A stretch of DNA of 21,728 nt from a virus: positions 1 to 21,728 of the IMG/VR virus record IMGVR_UViG_3300036985_004302, one strand, 5' to 3'. Of this stretch, positions 3,330 through 18,256 are shown piece after piece. The position numbers and the translations under genes are program-made. Under the pieces are notes generated by a model. It had not been told where the DNA came from and searched no databases. It saw nothing but the letters and a program-made list of their open reading frames with translations. The number at the start of each line of letters is the position of its first letter. Position 1 is the first letter of the stretch.

Positions 3330-3679
3330 TGACTGCTGGTATTTACAATTTTACAATAGACCAAGGTTCCAATTGGAACTTGAATGTTGTCTATAAAGAT
3401 TCCACTGGAACTGTAATAAATCTAACTGGCTACACAGCAGCGATGCAATTGCGTCAGAACTATAATTCTGACACTGCTGAACTGACACTTAACACTTCCA
3501 ATGGCGGCATTGTTATCACTGGCGCACAAGGTAAGTTAGTTTTATCAGCTACAGCAGTACAGACTGCTGCTCTTGATGCAGGCTTTTATGTTTACGATTT
3601 AGAGATTTCATCAGGCGGGGTTGTCACAAGACTTATTCAGGGTCAAATTACAGTTGCAGGCGAGGTAACCCGTGTCTAA
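3329..3679 (+). CDS. virion structural protein, BppU-N-like beta sandwich
   Basis: A 116-residue protein that is almost entirely predicted beta strand. Its pattern ([19 protein letters not shown], then [35 protein letters not shown]) matches a family of small phage proteins encoded beside tail fibre genes, whose fold resembles the N-terminal attachment domain of lactococcal phage BppU. Its likely role is to anchor or cap a fibre on the virion. The ATG overlaps the preceding stop (TAATG), and its last bases overlap the collagen-like gene, which supports assembly of the two products together. Family resemblance is from memory of sequence patterns, so the fold call is moderate. Confidence 0.65.
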
Positions 3680-5651
3680 TACAGTTGTCATTAACGAAGA
3701 TACAAACACCGTTGTCGTAAGCGATGTCGGTCTTGCAGGTCCCGTCGGTCCAACAGGTGCAACTGGTCCTGCTGGCGCAACTGGAGCAACAGGTGTTACA
3801 GGTCCAGTTGGTGCAACTGGTACTACTGGTCCACAAGGCTCAACAGGACCGACAGGTGTTACTGGACCAATCGGTGCAACTGGTGTCACAGGATTAACAG
3901 GCCCAACTGGTGTTCAAGGTTTAACAGGACCAACAGGTATCACAGGTCCTGTCGGTGCAACTGGAGTTGCTGGAGCGACAGGCTCAACTGGTCCACAAGG
4001 TATTCAAGGAATTCAAGGCGTTCAAGGAGATGTTGGCGCTACTGGTGCAACAGGTCCTCAAGGTAATGTTGGTGCAACAGGTCCTCAAGGTGATACTGGT
4101 TCAACTGGCCCAGTAGGTGCTACAGGTGCCACAGGTTCAATTGGCGCAACAGGTCCACAAGGTTCAACTGGACCTGTAGGTGCGACAGGAGCAACTGGTC
4201 CTACAGGTATTACAGGCTCGACTGGACCAACGGGTGCTACAGGGCCGCAAGGTGCTGGTATTTCTATTCTAGGTTCTTATGCAACACTTGCTGCTTTACA
4301 AGCGGCGCACCCAACAGGCAATGCAGGCGATGCTTATATTGTCGGTCCAGATTTATATGTTTGGTCTACGACATCATCTTCTTGGTTAAATGCTGGCGCA
4401 ATTCAAGGGCCAACAGGCTCAACAGGTCCTACTGGACCTATTGGTGCCACTGGCGCTACTGGACCAACGGGTGCTACGGGTGCAACTGGCGCTGCTGGTG
4501 CCAATGGCGGTTCAACAAGTTTATTTGATTACAACGCAGATACATCATCAACTTCAGGCGACCCTGGCGCTGGCGATATTCGTTGGAATAATGCAACGCA
4601 AATCAACGCCACTGTATTAAACATTGACCACTTAGACGTTGATGGCAATGATATTGATGTCTTTGTTGCGTTATTAAAAGCAGATGATTTCATAATCATT
4701 CAAGACAGAGATGTTCACACTAATTTTCAGAAATTCAAAGTTACAGCCGCAGCAACTATCCTTGGCGGTTATAGCACCGTTCCAGTAATCATAGATTCAT
4801 CAGGTGGCACTGGCACAACTAACTTCAGCAACTTTCAAGCCCTTGCATTATTGCTCATCAATGTCGGCTTAACAGGCGCAACAGGTCCTACAGGACCCGT
4901 TGGCGCCACAGGTCCAATCGGAGCCACAGGTTCAACAGGTCCAACAGGACCTATTGGCGCAACTGGACCACAAGGCGTTCAAGGCGATGTTGGAGCAACA
5001 GGACCAGTCGGAGCGACAGGACCAGTTGGTGCAACTGGACCAATTGGCGCAACTGGACCAACAGGACCAGTTGGTGCAACAGGCGCAACTGGAGTTGCTG
5101 GAGCCACAGGAGCAGTAGGAGCGACAGGCGCAACTGGAGTTGAAGGTGCAACAGGACCAACAGGAGCGCAAGGCGCAGTTGGTGCAACTGGAGCGACAGG
5201 ACCACAAGGAATTCAAGGCGTTCAAGGAGATGTTGGCGCTACAGGACCGATTGGCGCAAGTGGTGCAACAGGACCTGTAGGAGCAACAGGTGCAACTGGC
5301 CCACAAGGAATTGCTGGAGATACTGGAGCCACTGGTCCTACTGGAGTTGCTGGAGCAACGGGTGCGACAGGTCCACAAGGAATTGCTGGAGATACTGGAG
5401 CCACGGGTTCAACAGGTGCCACAGGACCAGCAGGTGCAACGGGACCAACAGGTGCCACAGGACCACAAGGAATTGCTGGCGATACAGGGGCAACAGGACC
5501 AGCAGGTGCAACAGGACCACAAGGAATTGCTGGCGCTGCTGGTGCAACAGGACCGACTGGACCAACGGGTGCAACAGGACCAACAGGTGCAACGGGTGCT
5601 ATTGTTGCAGATGACGACCAAAATATTATTGCAAATCAAGTATTTGGATAG
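3672..5651 (+). CDS. collagen-like tail fibre protein
   Basis: A 659-residue fibre protein dominated by Gly-X-Y repeats, mostly GATGPTG, GPQG and GPVG types, which form trimeric collagen helices. A short N-terminal anchor (residues 1-22, beta-rich) is followed by collagen 1 (23-194). A globular insert (about 195-245, with [12 protein letters not shown] and DLYVWS) separates this from short collagen 2 (246-279). A larger mixed alpha/beta insert follows (about 280-400), then collagen 3 (401-643), and the acidic tail [16 protein letters not shown]. Both inserts resemble domains seen in other phage tail proteins. It starts with GTG, overlapping the upstream beta-sandwich gene by eight bases. A stalk-like, host-facing fibre is the probable role. 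Proline hydroxylation is not expected in bacteria; threonine-rich Y positions could be glycosylated, and glycosyltransferases lie nearby. Confidence 0.88.
3738..5600 (+). repeat. 9-base periodic collagen-coding repeat array
   Basis: DNA encoding the Gly-X-Y tracts repeats with a 9-base period (GGN NNN ACN-like units), interrupted at about 4256-4410 and 4510-4870 by the two globular inserts. Larger units are duplicated: the 17-base string CCACAAGGAATTGCTGG occurs at 5301, 5373, 5463 and 5517, spaced 72, 90 and 54 bases, all multiples of 18. This points to in-frame expansion and contraction by recombination or slippage. Long open frames on the other strand here are by-products of the periodicity. 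Confidence 0.85.
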
Positions 5652-6017: not shown

Positions 6018-6965
6018 ATGAGTCGCTACGGGCAAAAGACACGGCTGACACAATTAGCAGACAACGCCAATCAAGTTGGCACGTGGTTTGGCGTAGTTGT
6101 CACACCTCCAAAAAATCGGGTTGATTTCCTTGTAGTCGCTGGTGGCGGTAGTGGAGGTAAGCCTGACGCAAACCTTTCTGCTGGCGGTGGTGCTGGTGGA
6201 CTTCGTTCATCGGTGACTGCAACAGGTGGTGGCGGTTCTTTAGAAACCACACTTATTTGTGCTTTGAATACGCCTTTTACAGTAACAGTTGGCGCGGGTG
6301 GAGCAGTTCAATCAACTAGTCAAACTGCAGGAAATAATGGGACGAATTCTGTCTTTGGAACAATCACATCAACTGGTGGAGGCGGTGGTGGTTCATCAAC
6401 CAATCCACCAACAACTCAAGGAGATGGAAAAACTGGCGGCTCTGGTGGTGGCGCAGGACAAAAATTATCTGGAACTTGGTCACCTGGAACAGTAGGTGCA
6501 GGAACTACCAATGAAGGTTTTGCTGGTGGTTTAGGAGTTGGAAATACTGTTGGCGGTGGCGGTGGTGGAGCAGGAGAAGTTGGCGACACTGATGGTAATG
6601 GACACGGCGGAGATGGTGTTGCAGTAGAAATTTCTGGTTCATCCGTTACTTATGCTGGTGGCGGTGGTGGTGGTTCAGGTACAACTGGCGGAGTTGGCGG
6701 CGCGGGCGGTGGTGGTAATGGCGGTTCAGGAGACCCATCAACAGGCGCTAATGGAACTGCAAACACTGGCGGCGGCGGTGGCGGCGGTCGCGGTGGTGCT
6801 GGCGGCGGTGGCTCAGGCGGTTCAGGAATTGTGATTCTTAAATACAGTTCAACATTAACTGCAACTTTTAGCGGCGGAGTAACACAAACCACAACCAATA
6901 ACGGCCTATTCAAAATTTCAACAATAACAGCTGCAGGCTTATCAGATACAGTTAGTTGGTCATAA
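6018..6965 (+). CDS. glycine-rich adhesin-like tail protein
   Basis: A 315-residue protein with runs of glycine. After an N-terminal segment (1-33), VDFLVVAGGGSGG opens the glycine-rich body (about 34-280), made of short strand units separated by GGGGGG stretches. A beta-rich end follows (GIVILKYSSTLTATFSGG and onward). This matches the glycine-rich domain family of phage and bacterial surface proteins. In T-even-like phage S16 the gp38 adhesin uses a polyglycine type II sandwich to present receptor-binding loops, and a similar fold may apply here. The ATG abuts the preceding stop with no clear ribosome site, so it is probably coupled. A receptor-binding tip for the neighbouring fibre is the most likely role. 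It also resembles generic glycine-rich proteins of unknown function. Confidence 0.72.
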   Translation: MSRYGQKTRLTQLADNANQVGTWFGVVVTPPKNRVDFLVVAGGGSGGKPDANLSAGGGAGGLRSSVTATGGGGSLETTLICALNTPFTVTVGAGGAVQSTSQTAGNNGTNSVFGTITSTGGGGGGSSTNPPTTQGDGKTGGSGGGAGQKLSGTWSPGTVGAGTTNEGFAGGLGVGNTVGGGGGGAGEVGDTDGNGHGGDGVAVEISGSSVTYAGGGGGGSGTTGGVGGAGGGGNGGSGDPSTGANGTANTGGGGGGGRGGAGGGGSGGSGIVILKYSSTLTATFSGGVTQTTTNNGLFKISTITAAGLSDTVSWS

Positions 6966-7361: not shown

Positions 7362-8444
7362 ATGAGATTTCACGTTGTGGCTCTGCCACATACGCAAGTA
7401 ACTAAAGAATTTGCAGGGTGCGCTTTCACCGAAAAAGTCAGACGCTTTTGCATAATGATGACTGGTCTTGGTCACGAAGTTTATCTCTACGCTGGCGAGC
7501 AAGTAGAAGCGCCAGTCACCAAACTCATCACCTGTATCTCAGAAGAGCGCCGCGCCGAGGCAGTAGGCAACAACCATTACACACAGGCATCCTTCGACAC
7601 CAGCGCTCTGCACTGGCAAATCTTTAACGCCAATGTGATTAGGTTGATGCAGAGCCACTTGCAACCGCAAGATTTTATCTGCCTCATCGGTGGGTATGCA
7701 CATAAGGCCATTGCCGATGCTTACCCAAACCACACTAGCGTTGAATTCGGTGTTGGATACGGTGGAGTCTTTAGCAAGTTTAGAGTTTTTGAATCATATT
7801 CCTGGATGCATTCCATCTACGCTGGTCATAAGAACCCGACAACAGTTGATGGTCAATTCTTTGATACTGTGATTCCAGGCTATTTAGAACCAGAGATGTT
7901 TCCACTCGGTGAAGGCAAAGGCGATTACTACCTCTTCATTGGTCGCCTGATTGAACGCAAGGGCTATCAGATAGCGCAAGAAGTCTGCGAGCGCCTTGGC
8001 AAGAGACTTATCTTGGCAGGCCCAGGCGAGCAATCAGGATATGGCGAGTTTGTAGGCTCAGTAGGTCCAGAGCAAAGAGCAGAGTTGATGGGAAATGCCA
8101 TCGCAACCTTTGCTCCAACGCTCTACATTGAACCATTTGGAAATGTAGTTATTGAAGCCCAAGCCTGTGGCACGCCTACTATCACAACTGATTGGGGCGC
8201 ATTTACAGAGAACAACATTAACGCTCTGACAGGCTACCGTTGCAGAACGCTGCAAGAGTTTATGGATGCAGCCGAAAACGTTAAAACACTAGACCGAAAG
8301 AAAATCAGAGAACATTCTGTTGGCCGATATGCGCTAGATGTTATCGCCAAAGAGTACGAAGATTACTTCCGCAAACTGCTAACCCTTTGGGATGGCGGTT
8401 GGTATCAATTAAGAACAGAAAAGGCAGGCAATGAGTCTATCTAA
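7362..8444 (+). CDS. GT-B fold glycosyltransferase (GT4-like)
   Basis: A 360-residue glycosyltransferase resembling the GT4 family of retaining sugar transferases. The N-terminal acceptor half is followed by a donor-binding domain from about residue 188: YLFIGRLIERKGYQ (190-203), RLILAGPG (215-222), and the EX7E signature EPFGNVVIE (257-265), whose first glutamate typically contacts the nucleotide sugar. ACGTPTI (268-274) and the acceptor-side TDWGAF also fit. The start follows a GGGGGA site. It lies directly after the fibre block and overlaps portal by 14 bases, so it is part of the late operon. The substrate cannot be read; virion protein glycosylation or surface-glycan alteration are both plausible. 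No membrane segment is seen, so it is cytosolic. Confidence 0.85.
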   Translation: MRFHVVALPHTQVTKEFAGCAFTEKVRRFCIMMTGLGHEVYLYAGEQVEAPVTKLITCISEERRAEAVGNNHYTQASFDTSALHWQIFNANVIRLMQSHLQPQDFICLIGGYAHKAIADAYPNHTSVEFGVGYGGVFSKFRVFESYSWMHSIYAGHKNPTTVDGQFFDTVIPGYLEPEMFPLGEGKGDYYLFIGRLIERKGYQIAQEVCERLGKRLILAGPGEQSGYGEFVGSVGPEQRAELMGNAIATFAPTLYIEPFGNVVIEAQACGTPTITTDWGAFTENNINALTGYRCRTLQEFMDAAENVKTLDRKKIREHSVGRYALDVIAKEYEDYFRKLLTLWDGGWYQLRTEKAGNESI

Positions 8445-12777: not shown

Positions 12778-12800
12778 TCTGAAGGAATAACTAAATAGTT

Positions 12801-12844
12801 GTGTAGGAGCAGGTGGGAATCCCCCGACTTGCCTGCTCCTACGC
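12801..12844 (+). terminator. strong hairpin after the capsid gene
   Basis: GTAGGAGCAGG (12803-12813) and CCTGCTCCTAC (12832-12842) pair perfectly over 11 bp. The stem extends outward through a T:G wobble and a G:C pair (12801:12844) and inward through a T:G wobble, giving about 14 pairs; GGG/CCC within the loop can nest. Only a few T bases follow (CTTCAT), so it may be a weak or partial terminator, or a 3' stabiliser that lowers expression of downstream genes relative to the capsid gene. Confidence 0.6.
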
Positions 12845-12867
12845 TTCATAATGATTCGGGGGAATCA

Positions 12868-14645: not shown

Positions 14646-14819
14646 ATGGGATACATAGTAAATTCTGACAGTTTTGCCTTGAAGAAAAAAGGCGAAGCAA
14701 TGACAGAAAAAGAACTGCTTGAAGCAGGATGCAATGTTGCGGCGCTAGTCGCAGGTGGTCATCTTGTGTCAGCACAAACCGCAAAAGCAGTACCGACACA
14801 AGAAGGAGAAACCAAATAA
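14646..14819 (+). CDS. small conserved-looking protein of the tail module
   Basis: A 57-residue protein beginning MGYIVNSDSFALKKKGE, with ELLEAGCNVAALVAGGHLVS in the middle and an acidic, flexible end. The ATG abuts the preceding stop and its own TAA overlaps the tail-tube ATG (TAATG), so it is tightly coupled. It appears to be a small soluble protein that often accompanies tail-tube genes in related phages. No function is assigned; an assembly or capping role is inference. Confidence 0.6.
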   Translation: MGYIVNSDSFALKKKGEAMTEKELLEAGCNVAALVAGGHLVSAQTAKAVPTQEGETK

Positions 14820-15232
14820 TGGCACGCATAGTCTTAACAGATGTGTCAGTCGTGATAAATTCAGTAAATTTATCTGACCATATCGCAAGCGTCACAATTT
14901 CGACGTCTGAAGATGTAATTGACACCAGTGCATTTAGTTCAACAATTGCTGCTGGCCGTACCCGCGTTGCGGGCCTTGCCGATAATTCGGTGACACTAGA
15001 GTTCCACCAGGACTTTGCAACATCCTCGGTTGAGCAAACAATTTACCCACTACTTGGCACATTAACCACAGTGGTTGTGAAGCCAACAAGTGATGCAGTA
15101 TCTGCAACAAATCCTTCCTACACTTTTTCAGCGCTTGTCTCAGAATGGCAAGAGTTGTCAGGTTCTGTGGGAGAATTGGCCACGGCATCCGTCACTTGGC
15201 CAATTTCAGGCGCAATTACAAAAGGAGTATAA
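14819..15232 (+). CDS. tail tube protein, copy 1
   Basis: A 137-residue beta-rich protein consistent with a small siphovirus tail tube subunit: MARIVLTDVSVVINSVNLSD, VTLEFHQDF, and the C-terminal FSALVSEWQELSGSVGELAT with SVTWPISGAI. It has an AAGGAG ribosome site, and the ATG overlaps the preceding stop by one base; an earlier in-frame ATG at 14729 was rejected because it lies in the previous gene. It is followed after three bases by a close paralog. The tube role rests on fold pattern, size and position before the chaperone and tape measure genes. Confidence 0.72.
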   Translation: MARIVLTDVSVVINSVNLSDHIASVTISTSEDVIDTSAFSSTIAAGRTRVAGLADNSVTLEFHQDFATSSVEQTIYPLLGTLTTVVVKPTSDAVSATNPSYTFSALVSEWQELSGSVGELATASVTWPISGAITKGV

Positions 15233-15235
15233 CTA

Positions 15236-15658
15236 ATGGCCCGCCTTGTTTTAACTGATGCATATGTCGTGCTTGCAAGCACCGACATCTCAGCATACGT
15301 CACGTCAGTGACATTATCTTCGACACTAGATGTCGTGGAAACCACTTCAATGGGTTCAACTTCCAGAACCCGCGTTGCTGGCCTTCGTGATAATCAAGTA
15401 ACCCTTGAGTTTAACCAGGACTTTGCTTCTGGCGCTCTTGAGACTCTGATTTATCCAAGCGATGCAACTTCAAAAATTGGAACAGCAGTTGCAATGGAGA
15501 TTCGACCAACTAGCGCAGCAGCATCTACAACCAATCCAAAATACAGTTTCAGCGCATTGATTACAGAATGGCAATCAGTATCAGGTAGCGTTGGCGAATT
15601 AGCCACTGTCTCAGTATCCTGGCCAATCTCAGGTGCAATTACAAAAGCAACATCCTAA
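15236..15658 (+). CDS. tail tube protein, copy 2 (paralog)
   Basis: A 140-residue paralog of the gene just upstream. They share MAR-VLTD at the start, RTRVAGL-DN-VTLEF-QDFA in the middle, and FSAL--EWQ--SGSVGELA with WPISGAITK near the end; roughly half the residues match by eye. Differences concentrate in the N-terminal strands and in a loop around residues 73-84. An AAAGGAG site precedes the ATG. Either both subunits are mixed in the tube, or one has taken a special role at an end of the tail or as a decoration. Confidence 0.7.
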   Translation: MARLVLTDAYVVLASTDISAYVTSVTLSSTLDVVETTSMGSTSRTRVAGLRDNQVTLEFNQDFASGALETLIYPSDATSKIGTAVAMEIRPTSAAASTTNPKYSFSALITEWQSVSGSVGELATVSVSWPISGAITKATS

Positions 15659-15678
15659 CAATATAAGGGGGAAATAAG

Positions 15679-15957
15679 ATGGATGGATTAGCAATAAAAG
15701 TAAAAACCGTTGATGGCAATGAGTCGGTCTATAAACTGACTCCACGCATCATCGTCGCTTTTGAACAGAACTTTGGCAAAGGACTACCCAAATTGATTGG
15801 GGAAGAACAAAAAATTGAACATATCTACTGGCTTGCTTGGAAGGCTCAACAGGTCAATGGAGTTGTTGTCAAACCTTTTGGTCCTGAATATCTGGATACA
15901 ATTTTGAGCGCCGAATTGGATGCAGACCCAAATTTCGAATCCACCGCGAAAGCCTAA
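15679..15957 (+). CDS. tail assembly chaperone, short form (gpG-like)
   Basis: A 92-residue protein with VKTVDGNESVYKLTPRIIVAFEQNFGKG and a central IEHIYWLAWKAQQV helix, the pattern of gpG-like chaperones that coat the tape measure protein during tail assembly. It begins with ATG after AAGGGGGA. It stops at TAA 15955-15957, but a -1 frame starts within its 3' end and continues 126 bases past this stop, matching the G/GT arrangement of lambda. The short form is the product when the ribosome does not shift. Location just before tail and tape measure genes supports the role. Confidence 0.8.
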   Translation: MDGLAIKVKTVDGNESVYKLTPRIIVAFEQNFGKGLPKLIGEEQKIEHIYWLAWKAQQVNGVVVKPFGPEYLDTILSAELDADPNFESTAKA

Positions 15958-16085
15958 CGTACACAGTTGCGGCAATTGCGGTGGAGACAGGCATTTCACC
16001 GATTGATTTGCTTGATGCCCCTGAAGGCATCATTGAAGCAATTGGAATCTATTTGAAAGAGCGGGCAAAGAAAAATGGCGGATGA
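15679..16085 (+). CDS. tail assembly chaperone, long -1 frameshifted form (gpGT-like)
   Basis: Predicted fusion made by a -1 ribosomal frameshift near 15927-15936. The first 86 residues equal the short form up to PNF; the ribosome then reads from 15936 in the -1 frame, adding 49 residues (RIHRESLTYTVAAIAVETGI followed by SPIDLLDAPEG and IEAIGIYLKERAKKNGG) to a TGA at 16083-16085, for 135 residues. The extension has no start codon of its own in a sensible position and is the kind of helical T domain seen in gpGT proteins, which bridge the tape measure and tail tube. The next gene begins within its last codons. The coding extension is seen directly; the shift is predicted. Confidence 0.8.
15927..15936 (+). 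promoter_or_regulatory. programmed -1 frameshift slippery site (overlapping heptamers)
   Basis: CCCAAATTTC contains two overlapping X XXY YYZ heptamers, both correctly phased to the chaperone frame: C CCA AAT (15927-15933) and A AAT TTC (15930-15936). A slip at either yields the same amino acids, DPNFRIH, so the product cannot tell them apart. The first is followed by a six-base spacer to the hairpin at 15940. Confidence 0.8.
15940..15985 (+). promoter_or_regulatory. frameshift-stimulating hairpin
   Basis: TCCACCGC (15940-15947) pairs perfectly with GCGGTGGA (15978-15985), and a G:T wobble plus A:T pair extend it to about ten pairs (to 15949 and 15976). The loop is 26 bases. It begins six bases after the CCCAAAT heptamer, within the usual range for a stimulator. 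A pseudoknot partner is not convincing. Confidence 0.7.
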
Positions 16086-16653
16086 AGTCATAGTTCTAAC
16101 AGGTATCAAAGAAACTGTTGATGCCTTAAAAGAATTTGATAAATCTGCTGTTCGTAGATTCAACAAAGTAATTAACACCGAACTTGCCAACGCCGAACGC
16201 GATGCTCACGGTATTGCGCGTGGCATTGGTAATGGCAAAACAGATACTCCAATGAGCGGTTGGCGGACTTATGACGCCGCCAACCCGCAAAGGAGTTCGC
16301 GTGGTGGCGCTGGCTGGCCTGCCTGGAATACTGGAACAGTTATTGCAGGCATTCGTAAAACCAAGGCACAAGGCAAAGTCAGACGCGATTACACAACCAG
16401 TGCTGGCGCTTTGATAAATAAATCAGCCGCTGGCGCTATCTTTGAAATTGCTGGTCGTAAAAGTGGTGGAACAATGGCACGCTCTAATGGCGGTCAATTT
16501 ATGCGCACATTGTCAGCCAGATTCAAACCTGCTTCGCGTTTGATATGGCGCGTTGTTGATAAAGACCGCGCTAAAATTGAAGCCAACGTGAAAAAGGCTC
16601 TTGATGAAGCCAAAGCAGAATTACAAAAACATTTGAACAGAGAGCAGGTATAA
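16075..16653 (+). CDS. putative minor tail protein / tail completion protein
   Basis: A 192-residue basic protein. The N-terminal part has a helical segment (ETVDALKEFDKSAVRRFNKVINTELANAE), followed by a glycine- and tryptophan-containing middle (GAGWPAWNTGTVIAGIRKT) and a helical, charged C-terminal end (KIEANVKKALDEAKAELQKHL). The overall shape recalls HK97 gp10-like or minor tail proteins, but I do not recognise the family firmly. It starts inside the -1 frame chaperone end, so its translation may be tied to the frameshifted product, and it ends one base before the tape measure start. The position between chaperones and tape measure suggests a tail assembly role. Confidence 0.5.
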   Translation: MADEVIVLTGIKETVDALKEFDKSAVRRFNKVINTELANAERDAHGIARGIGNGKTDTPMSGWRTYDAANPQRSSRGGAGWPAWNTGTVIAGIRKTKAQGKVRRDYTTSAGALINKSAAGAIFEIAGRKSGGTMARSNGGQFMRTLSARFKPASRLIWRVVDKDRAKIEANVKKALDEAKAELQKHLNREQV

Positions 16654-16654
16654 A

Positions 16655-18256
16655 GTGGCAATTGGTGCAGTAGTAGCGCGAATCCTCACTCAATACTCTG
16701 ATAAAGGCTCAAAGGCTGCTCAAAAAGATATTAACAAACTTGGCAAGAATTTTGACGCCTTTGCTAAGAAAAGTGTAAAAGCATTTGGCGTTGCCGCTGC
16801 CGCTGTCGGAGCATTTGCACTTAAAGTTGGCAAAGATGCAGTGCAGGCTGCTATTGCAGACCAGAAAAGCCAAGTTCTTCTTGCCAATAGCCTTCGCAAT
16901 ACTACAGGCGCAACTAATGCTGCGATTGCTAGCGTTGAAAGTTATGTAGCAAATCTGCAACTCCAAGTCGGTGTCACCGATGATGAATTAAGGCCAAGTT
17001 TGGCGAAACTAGCGGCGGTAACTGGCTCAGTCAGTGCTGCTCAAGGCTTACTTGGAACTGCCTTGGATGTATCAGCATTTGCAAGCGTTGATTTAGGTAC
17101 TGCAACAAATGCAATTACAAAAGCCTTACAAGGCAATTTTCGTGGTTTGCAAAATTTAGTTAAAGGCATTGACCTAACTACTCTAAAATCAAAAGATTTA
17201 GTTAAAATCTTTGAAGAAGTTGAAGCAATAACACAAGGCTCGGCAGCAGCGCGAGCAAACACTTTAGAATTTCGTTTGAACATTTTACGCATTCGCTTTG
17301 GAGAGATTCTTGAAGAACTTGGTTACAAACTTTTGCCAGTTCTCGAAAGATTTGCTCAAACAATACAGACAAAAGTTTTGCCACAATTAGAAGCATTTAT
17401 TGCAACTAATGGCACAAGATTAGTAGAAGCGTTCACATCTGCTAGTGAGGCTGCCGTCAAACTCATAGGATTATTCGTCACATTCGTTACCTTCGTTTCA
17501 AACAATATGGGCTTGATTGAGACAATGGCTAAATTGATTGCAGGAATGTTTGTAATTGGTCGCATCGCCGCTTTTGCAACTGTATTAGGCAAGTTGACCG
17601 CTGCATTCGTTGCTTTGCGCACTGCCGCTGGCACCGCCGCTGTTGCAACAGCCTTCGCCACAGGCGGCGCATCAATTGGCTCAGCAGCAGCAGCCTTGGC
17701 CATTGTTGGTGGCGCTGCCGCAATCACTGGCTTAAAAGTTGCAGGCAATAATGCAAGAAGCAAAAAAGCAGGGCAGGCAACTGGACCTTTAGGCAATTAT
17801 GCAATGTCAACTGGTTCTACATCAACAGTTGCAGCAGCAGCAAAGGTTGACCCAATGGCTGCTATTATGGCCGCTCTTCTCAAGGCTCAAAACGCTTTGA
17901 ATAATGGCAAGAAAAAAGAACTTTCAATTCAACAGCAAATCACTAATGCAATAGCAAAGAAATACAAAATTACAGTAATGACTGCCGAAATTGAGGCCAA
18001 AGCAACTGCTGCTGCAATCAATGCGAATCTTGCGCGTCAGGCTATGATTGCAAATTCTCCAACCGTTTCACTTGCAGCCCAAGGCGATGGCTCTGCTGGT
18101 GGCAACTCAATAATCAACTCAGGCACGCCAAACGTATCGGTCAACATAACCACACCACACGGAACTGCCGATGACTATGTTGTGGACATTACTAATAGAC
18201 AGAATCAACTTGCTAGACGCGCAGGCGCAATAAACATTTTACATAGGACAAGATAG
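16655..18256 (+). CDS. tape measure protein
   Basis: Tail length ruler and DNA-ejection channel component, 533 residues. The N-terminal helices (ARILTQYSDKGSKAAQKDINKL, then a small hydrophobic helix at 43-59) and repeated helical segments (SYVANLQLQVGVTDDELRPSLAKLAAVTGSVSAAQGLL) are typical. Hydrophobic segments at about 269-283, 294-322 and 326-363 could insert in the host membrane during DNA entry. The C-terminal end is rich in Ala/Gly/Ser. It starts with GTG after a purine-rich site. For a siphovirus this is short; about 1.5 Angstrom per residue predicts a tail near 80 nm. No peptidase motif was noticed. Its stop overlaps the next GTG by one base. Confidence 0.88.
   Translation: MAIGAVVARILTQYSDKGSKAAQKDINKLGKNFDAFAKKSVKAFGVAAAAVGAFALKVGKDAVQAAIADQKSQVLLANSLRNTTGATNAAIASVESYVANLQLQVGVTDDELRPSLAKLAAVTGSVSAAQGLLGTALDVSAFASVDLGTATNAITKALQGNFRGLQNLVKGIDLTTLKSKDLVKIFEEVEAITQGSAAARANTLEFRLNILRIRFGEILEELGYKLLPVLERFAQTIQTKVLPQLEAFIATNGTRLVEAFTSASEAAVKLIGLFVTFVTFVSNNMGLIETMAKLIAGMFVIGRIAAFATVLGKLTAAFVALRTAAGTAAVATAFATGGASIGSAAAALAIVGGAAAITGLKVAGNNARSKKAGQATGPLGNYAMSTGSTSTVAAAAKVDPMAAIMAALLKAQNALNNGKKKELSIQQQITNAIAKKYKITVMTAEIEAKATAAAINANLARQAMIANSPTVSLAAQGDGSAGGNSIINSGTPNVSVNITTPHGTADDYVVDITNRQNQLARRAGAINILHRTR

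Follow-up and report, generated by a model that had tools for sequence, protein, structure and literature searches.

How a phage could translate a reading frame that opens without any start codon is the question raised by a 21,728-nucleotide stretch of DNA from an IMG/VR virus record (hereafter the window), a freshwater phage with a siphovirus-like structural gene module. Behind a short gene, G (15679-15957, + strand), a second frame, T, opens in the -1 register with no ATG, GTG or TTG nearby. An earlier note on this DNA had proposed that ribosomes shift frame here, as in the tail assembly chaperone genes of other phages, where G/GT frameshifting is widely conserved among long-tailed representatives (Atkins 2016, PMC5009743). 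Our analysis indicates that the segment very probably directs programmed -1 ribosomal frameshifting of the kind known from lambda G/GT. The frameshift comes close to certainty because, among relatives, the two frames are never fused, the G stop is fixed, the wobble position switches frame and an RNA stem is kept. We conclude that the locus belongs to the known G/GT class of -1 frameshifts, and that the chaperone family itself was previously unannotated.

Profile matches identify a terminase, portal, prohead protease, capsid, head-tail connector, tail terminator and tail tube in the structural module. G is a frame-0 ORF of 92 amino acids that encodes a short tail-assembly-chaperone-like protein. 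It lies directly 3′ of the major tail (tube) protein (15236-15658, + strand; phrog_4574, E 9.4e-26) and is followed, with one extra gene (16075-16653) intervening, by the presumed tape measure protein (16655-18256, + strand, 533 aa). The latter is assigned by position only, the annotated tape measure of Pontimonas phage phiPsal1 standing at the same position, and family searches returned no match for it. The intervening gene is likewise without a family match. Its ATG and the T stop overlap in the window, most relatives have an ATG only a few bases from that stop, and translation of T may be coupled to this gene.

Several other features of the window deserve mention. The tail tube proteins are in tandem (14819-15232 and 15236-15658), as paralogues that are 57% identical, and two copies occur in 244 of the 249 relatives having enough upstream sequence. 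The most stable 46-nt hairpin of the window (12799-12845) is situated just 3′ of the capsid gene and is possibly a terminator; it overlaps a TTG-started ORF listed from 12799, which makes the true start of that ORF doubtful. Between terminase and portal are a collagen-repeat protein (659 aa, 3672-5651), a glycine-rich protein (6018-6965) and a glycosyltransferase (7362-8444), only the first and last of these having a Pfam basis, and at 70-1251 a ParB N-terminal domain is joined to an N6/N4 DNA methylase. One scan of genome contigs for the host gave no relative, and no tRNA is present within the window; named relatives suggest Actinobacteria as the host group.

The T domain occupies 15933-16085 (+ strand, -1 frame, stop TGA at 16083-16085) and has the sequence FRIHRESLTYTVAAIAVETGISPIDLLDAPEGIIEAIGIYLKERAKKNGG. 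The start-less 49-codon extension described previously is confirmed by this reading, which amounts to 50 amino acids when the slip-site F is counted. An AlphaFold model of T consists of three helices (pLDDT 89.5), in support of the helical domain that had been read from the translation. The frame-0 stop TAA of G (15955-15957, + strand) falls within the loop region of the hairpin described below.

Near the G end, the frame-0 codons are GAC CCA AAT TTC GAA TCC ACC GCG AAA GCC TAA. Two overlapping heptamers had been claimed here, and their coordinates and phase are correct: C_CCA_AAT at 15927-15933 and A_AAT_TTC at 15930-15936 (both + strand) are in phase with G. The six-base spacer reported after the first heptamer is also found (TTCGAA, 15934-15939, + strand), and its length is constant in all 305 loci of the main family; only three bases (15937-15939) separate A_AAT_TTC from the stem. 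Across the window's genes, in-phase XXXYYYZ heptamers number 17 among 6,977 codons, or about one per 410, and the -1 frame is open over 23 codons (15888-15957), where a chance heptamer is expected in about 5% of cases. A heptamer by itself is weak evidence, and it is the stem and the relatives that carry the case; on the window alone the frameshift is suggestive, and the relatives decide. Inspection by eye of the stretch 5′ of the slip site in the window revealed none of the Shine-Dalgarno-like stimulators GAGG, GGAG or AGGA.

The perfect 8-bp stem noted before (15940-15947 with 15978-15985) is present, and RNA folding lengthens it to 10 bp, pairing the 5′ arm TCCACCGCGA (15940-15949, + strand) with the 3′ arm TTGCGGTGGA (15976-15985, + strand) and adding an inner helix. 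The predicted energy is -25.8 kcal/mol (z -4.5), none of 200 shuffles was as stable, and the hairpin ranks third in stability among 7,228 46-nt segments tested on the + strand. Both arms are assigned on the fold z, on covariation and on a pairing excess over protein-constrained controls. A search of the region 15600-16300 against Rfam gave no match at E up to 1.

Relatives were collected by four scans of viral contigs with the family's G and T and one from phiPsal1, with the best 80 taken per scan. T was recovered whether the query was T on its own or G, a safeguard against finding split forms only. The 308 loci obtained (IMG/VR) comprise 305 of the main family, 218 of them distinct in the region, and three that are phiPsal1-like. 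Some contigs are present twice and the class frequencies are no census; moreover, many loci are closely related, so that counts overstate independent events. The tree was built on about 290 bases. No fused G-T frame occurs in any of the 308 loci, the T frame is found in all of them and the stem in nearly all, which is the opposite of the single continuous frame, or joint loss of heptamer and stem, that the earlier note had named as grounds for abandoning its reading. G is kept as a 92-aa protein in 303 loci. Counted from where the F codon begins, its stop ends 25 bases downstream in 305 loci and 10 bases downstream in the three phiPsal1-like ones.

The change of coding frame is evident in the pattern of substitution. 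Upstream of the slip site, mean column entropy is highest at position 3 of frame 0 (1.41 vs 0.68 and 0.50); in T, the highest value belongs to position 3 of frame -1 (1.37 vs 0.61 and 0.27). Just 3′ of the slip-site F, frame-0 second positions vary and the -1 protein, FRIHR, is nearly constant. For example, the frame-0 changes TTC/TCC, GAA/GGA/GTA and GCC/GTC in the overlap keep F, R and S in frame -1. Because such changes are largely silent in frame -1, this frame is under constraint from the F codon onward, 5′ of the G stop, and separate initiation of T would therefore not explain the conservation.

Stem pairing is equally well kept, the ten pairs being formed in 96.4% of cells, compared with 87.0% for shuffled partners and 38-48% for slid partners. 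Cells changed on both sides number 87, against 25 in shuffles, and covariation is 0.242, against 0.092 in shuffles (0 of 500 reaching the observed value). If the T protein is held fixed and its codons are redrawn from the family's own usage, pairing is 69% (maximum 72% in 300 draws), and if same-residue codons are exchanged between sequences it is 87.6% (maximum 89.2). At pairs 6 and 8 both bases are exchanged together, C-G for A-U, in 31 and 39 sequences, respectively, pair 9 occurs as G-C, G-U or A-U, and the wobble bases of Ile and His within the 5′ arm are C in 135 of 135 cases. By these measures the stem is under selection as RNA, beyond the constraint imposed by the protein, and it presumably acts as a stimulator of frameshifting. 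In three relatives (L057, L065 and L075) the stem seems to have been re-positioned: the original 3′ arm is disrupted, and the same 5′ arm pairs instead with an equivalent, TGCGGTGG, located six bases upstream. Comparison across the family thus reveals two coding frames, a conserved RNA stem and a conserved slip position.

The slip site itself takes about 20 forms while the T frame, the G stop and the hairpin stay put. The window's clade includes 29 distinct sequences (support 100/99), and CCCAAAT is present in all 29. The codon after CCA AAT is TTC in 17 and TCC in 12, the two being scattered over the clade, and in the members with TCC everything else is unchanged. Hence, the tandem arrangement emphasized by the earlier note stands only in part: both heptamers are in phase, but they are not equal partners, since CCCAAAT is universal in the clade and AAATTTC is repeatedly lost. 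Because AAATTTC flips to AAATTCC repeatedly, phages of the window's clade can, by this comparison, do without it; as an addition it may adjust the frameshift rate or simply be neutral. The likely main site of this phage is CCCAAAT, six bases from the stem, because it is always kept while TTC and TCC alternate.

Among the 218 distinct sequences, class A (CCC in phase) consists of CCCAAAT (149), CCCTTCT (9), CCCAAAC (2) and CCCTTTT (1), and the codon after the heptamer is free (TCC, TCA, TTC or TTA). C occupies the position preceding CCN in 159 of 160 class-A sequences, a synonymous choice in an Asp/Asn codon, and the same position in 22 of 55 sequences without CCN; elsewhere in G, GAT is preferred over GAC for Asp (284:132). 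CCA is always followed by an A-starting codon and CCT by a T-starting codon (160 of 160). Class B (no CCC) consists of NNN TCT TTC (50), GCA AAT TTC (6) and a single sequence, L044, with T_CCA_AAT and an intact A_AAT_TTC. TTC is fixed in all 55 sequences lacking CCN in the set used, and the CCC-less lineages always retain it, one codon nearer the same stem. The 50 NNN TCT TTC sequences lack any X_XXY_YYZ heptamer where the -1 frame is open. As the -1 frame stop in these TCT lineages is usually one or two codons upstream, their shift would have to take place at or beside TCT TTC. Heptamer-free sites have precedent: among the annotated tail chaperone frameshifts reported by PRFect, many lack XXXYYYZ (PMC10885494). 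In E. coli, U_UUC ranks second among the Z_ZZN tetramers and needs a strong stimulator (PMC4066793).

On the tree, at least four changes separate class A from class B, and the CCC-less lineages are a 43-member TCT TTC clade, a GCA AAT TTC clade beside CCA AAT relatives, L223, and a GAA TCT TTC clade. The most plausible view of the tandem arrangement is of a pair of alternative slip registers sharing one hairpin, and the overlapping sites would form a bridge between the classes, either being losable while the other works. We tentatively propose, as a scenario that is quite possible but short of probable, that the slip site moves by one codon under a fixed hairpin, with two-site phages such as that of the window as intermediates, and that at least four lineages ended without CCC, mostly with a heptamer-free U_UUC and the stem three bases off. 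Stem pair 3 is formed in 13 of 33 class-B sequences versus 83 of 84 class-A sequences without TTC; in the same two sets the counts are 25 versus 41 for pair 11 and 16 versus 7 for pair 12. The stem base of class B is relaxed and its top lengthened, as if the working stem had moved up with the ribosome. We suggest that a class-B ribosome, one codon nearer the stem, would already have melted its bottom three pairs. This matches the relaxed pair 3, whose link to class B is conspicuous by count (26 of 55 versus 1 of 160) but has very few independent origins and is not significant on the tree.

Conservation of T 3′ of the G stop would also be compatible with a separate protein made by re-initiation after that stop, with no frameshift. 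However, the first possible start in most relatives is a GTG 48 bases into T (AVETG; 219 of 305), deep in the domain and within the stem, and 26 relatives have no possible start by offset 60 from F. Re-initiation would moreover leave the conservation of FRIHRES 5′ of the G stop, the slip triplet and the stem unexplained, and we consider it very improbable. Fusion by transcriptional rather than ribosomal slippage would join the frames equally well and is possible in those phiPsal1 relatives that carry a run of seven or eight A, but for the window it is scarcely credible: no long homopolymer is present, CCCAAATTT having runs of three only, and a selected downstream RNA stem fits ribosomal slippage.

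Other alternatives concern the register of the same frameshift. If the main slip were on A_AAT_TTC (or on U_UUC alone), three bases from the stem, CCCAAAT would be secondary. In favour of this, cognate re-pairing on UUU is available to UUC, shift-prone sequences in E. coli include R_RR.U_UU.Y heptamers and the U_UUC tetramer (PMC4066793), and the CCC-less lineages evidently use the TTC register. The best heptamers in E. coli are those in which the A-site tRNA re-pairs cognately (PMC4066793); this is so for TTC to TTT and not for AAT to AAA, and by that rule A_AAU_UUC could be the stronger site. Nevertheless, its spacer of three is below the usual 5-9 bases, a wider range being acknowledged (PMC5009743), and the frequent TCC in the window's clade, with the rest kept and CCCAAAT invariant, speaks against it. 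We regard a main slip on A_AAT_TTC as unlikely in this phage. For the CCC-less relatives only, tRNA-Ser (UCU) and tRNA-Phe might slip together on N_UCU_UUC instead of a single tRNA on U_UUC, a conceivable arrangement about which we are somewhat doubtful. UCU precedes in all CCC-less lineages except the GCA AAT TTC clade, and it also stands in place of AAT in the C_CCT_TCT relatives. A tRNA-Ser with anticodon GGA, as we assume it to be, could pair on UUC with one G-U. However, all four bases occur directly before UCU, such that P-site re-pairing is not kept.

For the window, our preferred reading is a slip on C_CCA_AAT. The majority of ribosomes would translate G and terminate at 15957, and a minority would be delayed by the hairpin (15940-15985) while CCA occupies the P site and AAT the A site. 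These paused ribosomes would slip one base back on C_CCA_AAT and continue as ...DPN-FRIHRES... to 16085, yielding a protein in which T is fused to G. If the roles are as in lambda, G would coat the tape measure, and the T portion of the fused protein would recruit tail tube protein. A_AAT_TTC, lying one codon closer to the stem, would offer a further register that resembles the one of other family lineages. Slippage itself, its rate, the dominant register and the roles of the proteins are what we infer from the comparisons.

The earlier note's assignment to a tail chaperone gene fares differently in its two parts, in that the frameshift signal is backed by the relatives and G is a putative tail assembly chaperone by gene order and G/T architecture. 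Neither G nor T of the window has a PHROG, Pfam or NCBIfam match to a chaperone, and the 135-aa G-T fusion has no match in PHROGs. Distant G relatives match phrog_6889, which is annotated as of unknown function. A fold search with G gave confident matches to unnamed phage proteins only; a single weak Foldseek row was named tail assembly chaperone (E 0.17), and Foldseek and VIA-align against the PDB returned nothing usable for G. PDB profile matches to a plant protein (E 0.015-0.03) were judged to be chance.

These findings offer a likely function for a large unannotated gene family of freshwater phages (phrog_6889-related G plus a hidden T) and add T to genomes whose annotation misses it, phiPsal1 included. 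With its fixed T frame, G stop and hairpin and its varying slip site, the family is a natural mutagenesis series, which bears on how little heptamer suffices under a strong stem and on how slip-site position and stem base are matched. Tools that look only for XXXYYYZ would overlook about a quarter of the distinct sequences sampled.

Lambda (G_GGA_AAG) and the window have in common a short G after the tail tube gene, a start-less T in the -1 frame, a slippery heptamer near the G end and a tape measure downstream, presumed in the window. Unlike lambda, the window has CCCAAAT together with a second, overlapping heptamer and a strong conserved hairpin six bases on, its G and T are without sequence match to annotated families, and an extra gene separates T from the presumed tape measure. 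We found no description of overlapping slip sites in phage tail genes in the open-access literature covered. The class-B relatives are like the IS3-family Z_ZZN (U_UUC) sites with strong RNA stimulators in combining U_UUC with a strong stem and no heptamer; unlike the IS3 members, which follow a 4-10 rule, their stem starts three bases after the motif and they belong to phage tail genes.

Closer parallels come from two named phages. Gene 016 of phiPsal1 (MG835450; L082) shares 23.8% identity with the window's G along 80 aa (E 0.9, non-significant), and both this protein and other G proteins of the family match phrog_6889; it is a possible distant relative of the window's G. Its -1 frame matches the T profile (96.6% probability), and the gene order is as in the window. 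This unannotated T frame (4667-4842) lies behind an A_AAA_AAA slip run, right after which G ends; the annotation has no frameshift, and the annotated start of phiPsal1_017 (locus 4777) falls inside the T frame. The gp13 region of EBPR siphovirus 6 (JF412301) has a T-like -1 frame (92.7% probability) after a tail tube homologue, with an in-phase C_CCT_TTG read by eye and a G without family match. Single-sequence folds 3′ of the phiPsal1 and EBPR siphovirus 6 sites give unnormalized energies of -18 to -22 kcal/mol per 60 bases. Thus, the putative G/T frame relationship persists across the unlike slip sites of the window's family, phiPsal1 and EBPR siphovirus 6.
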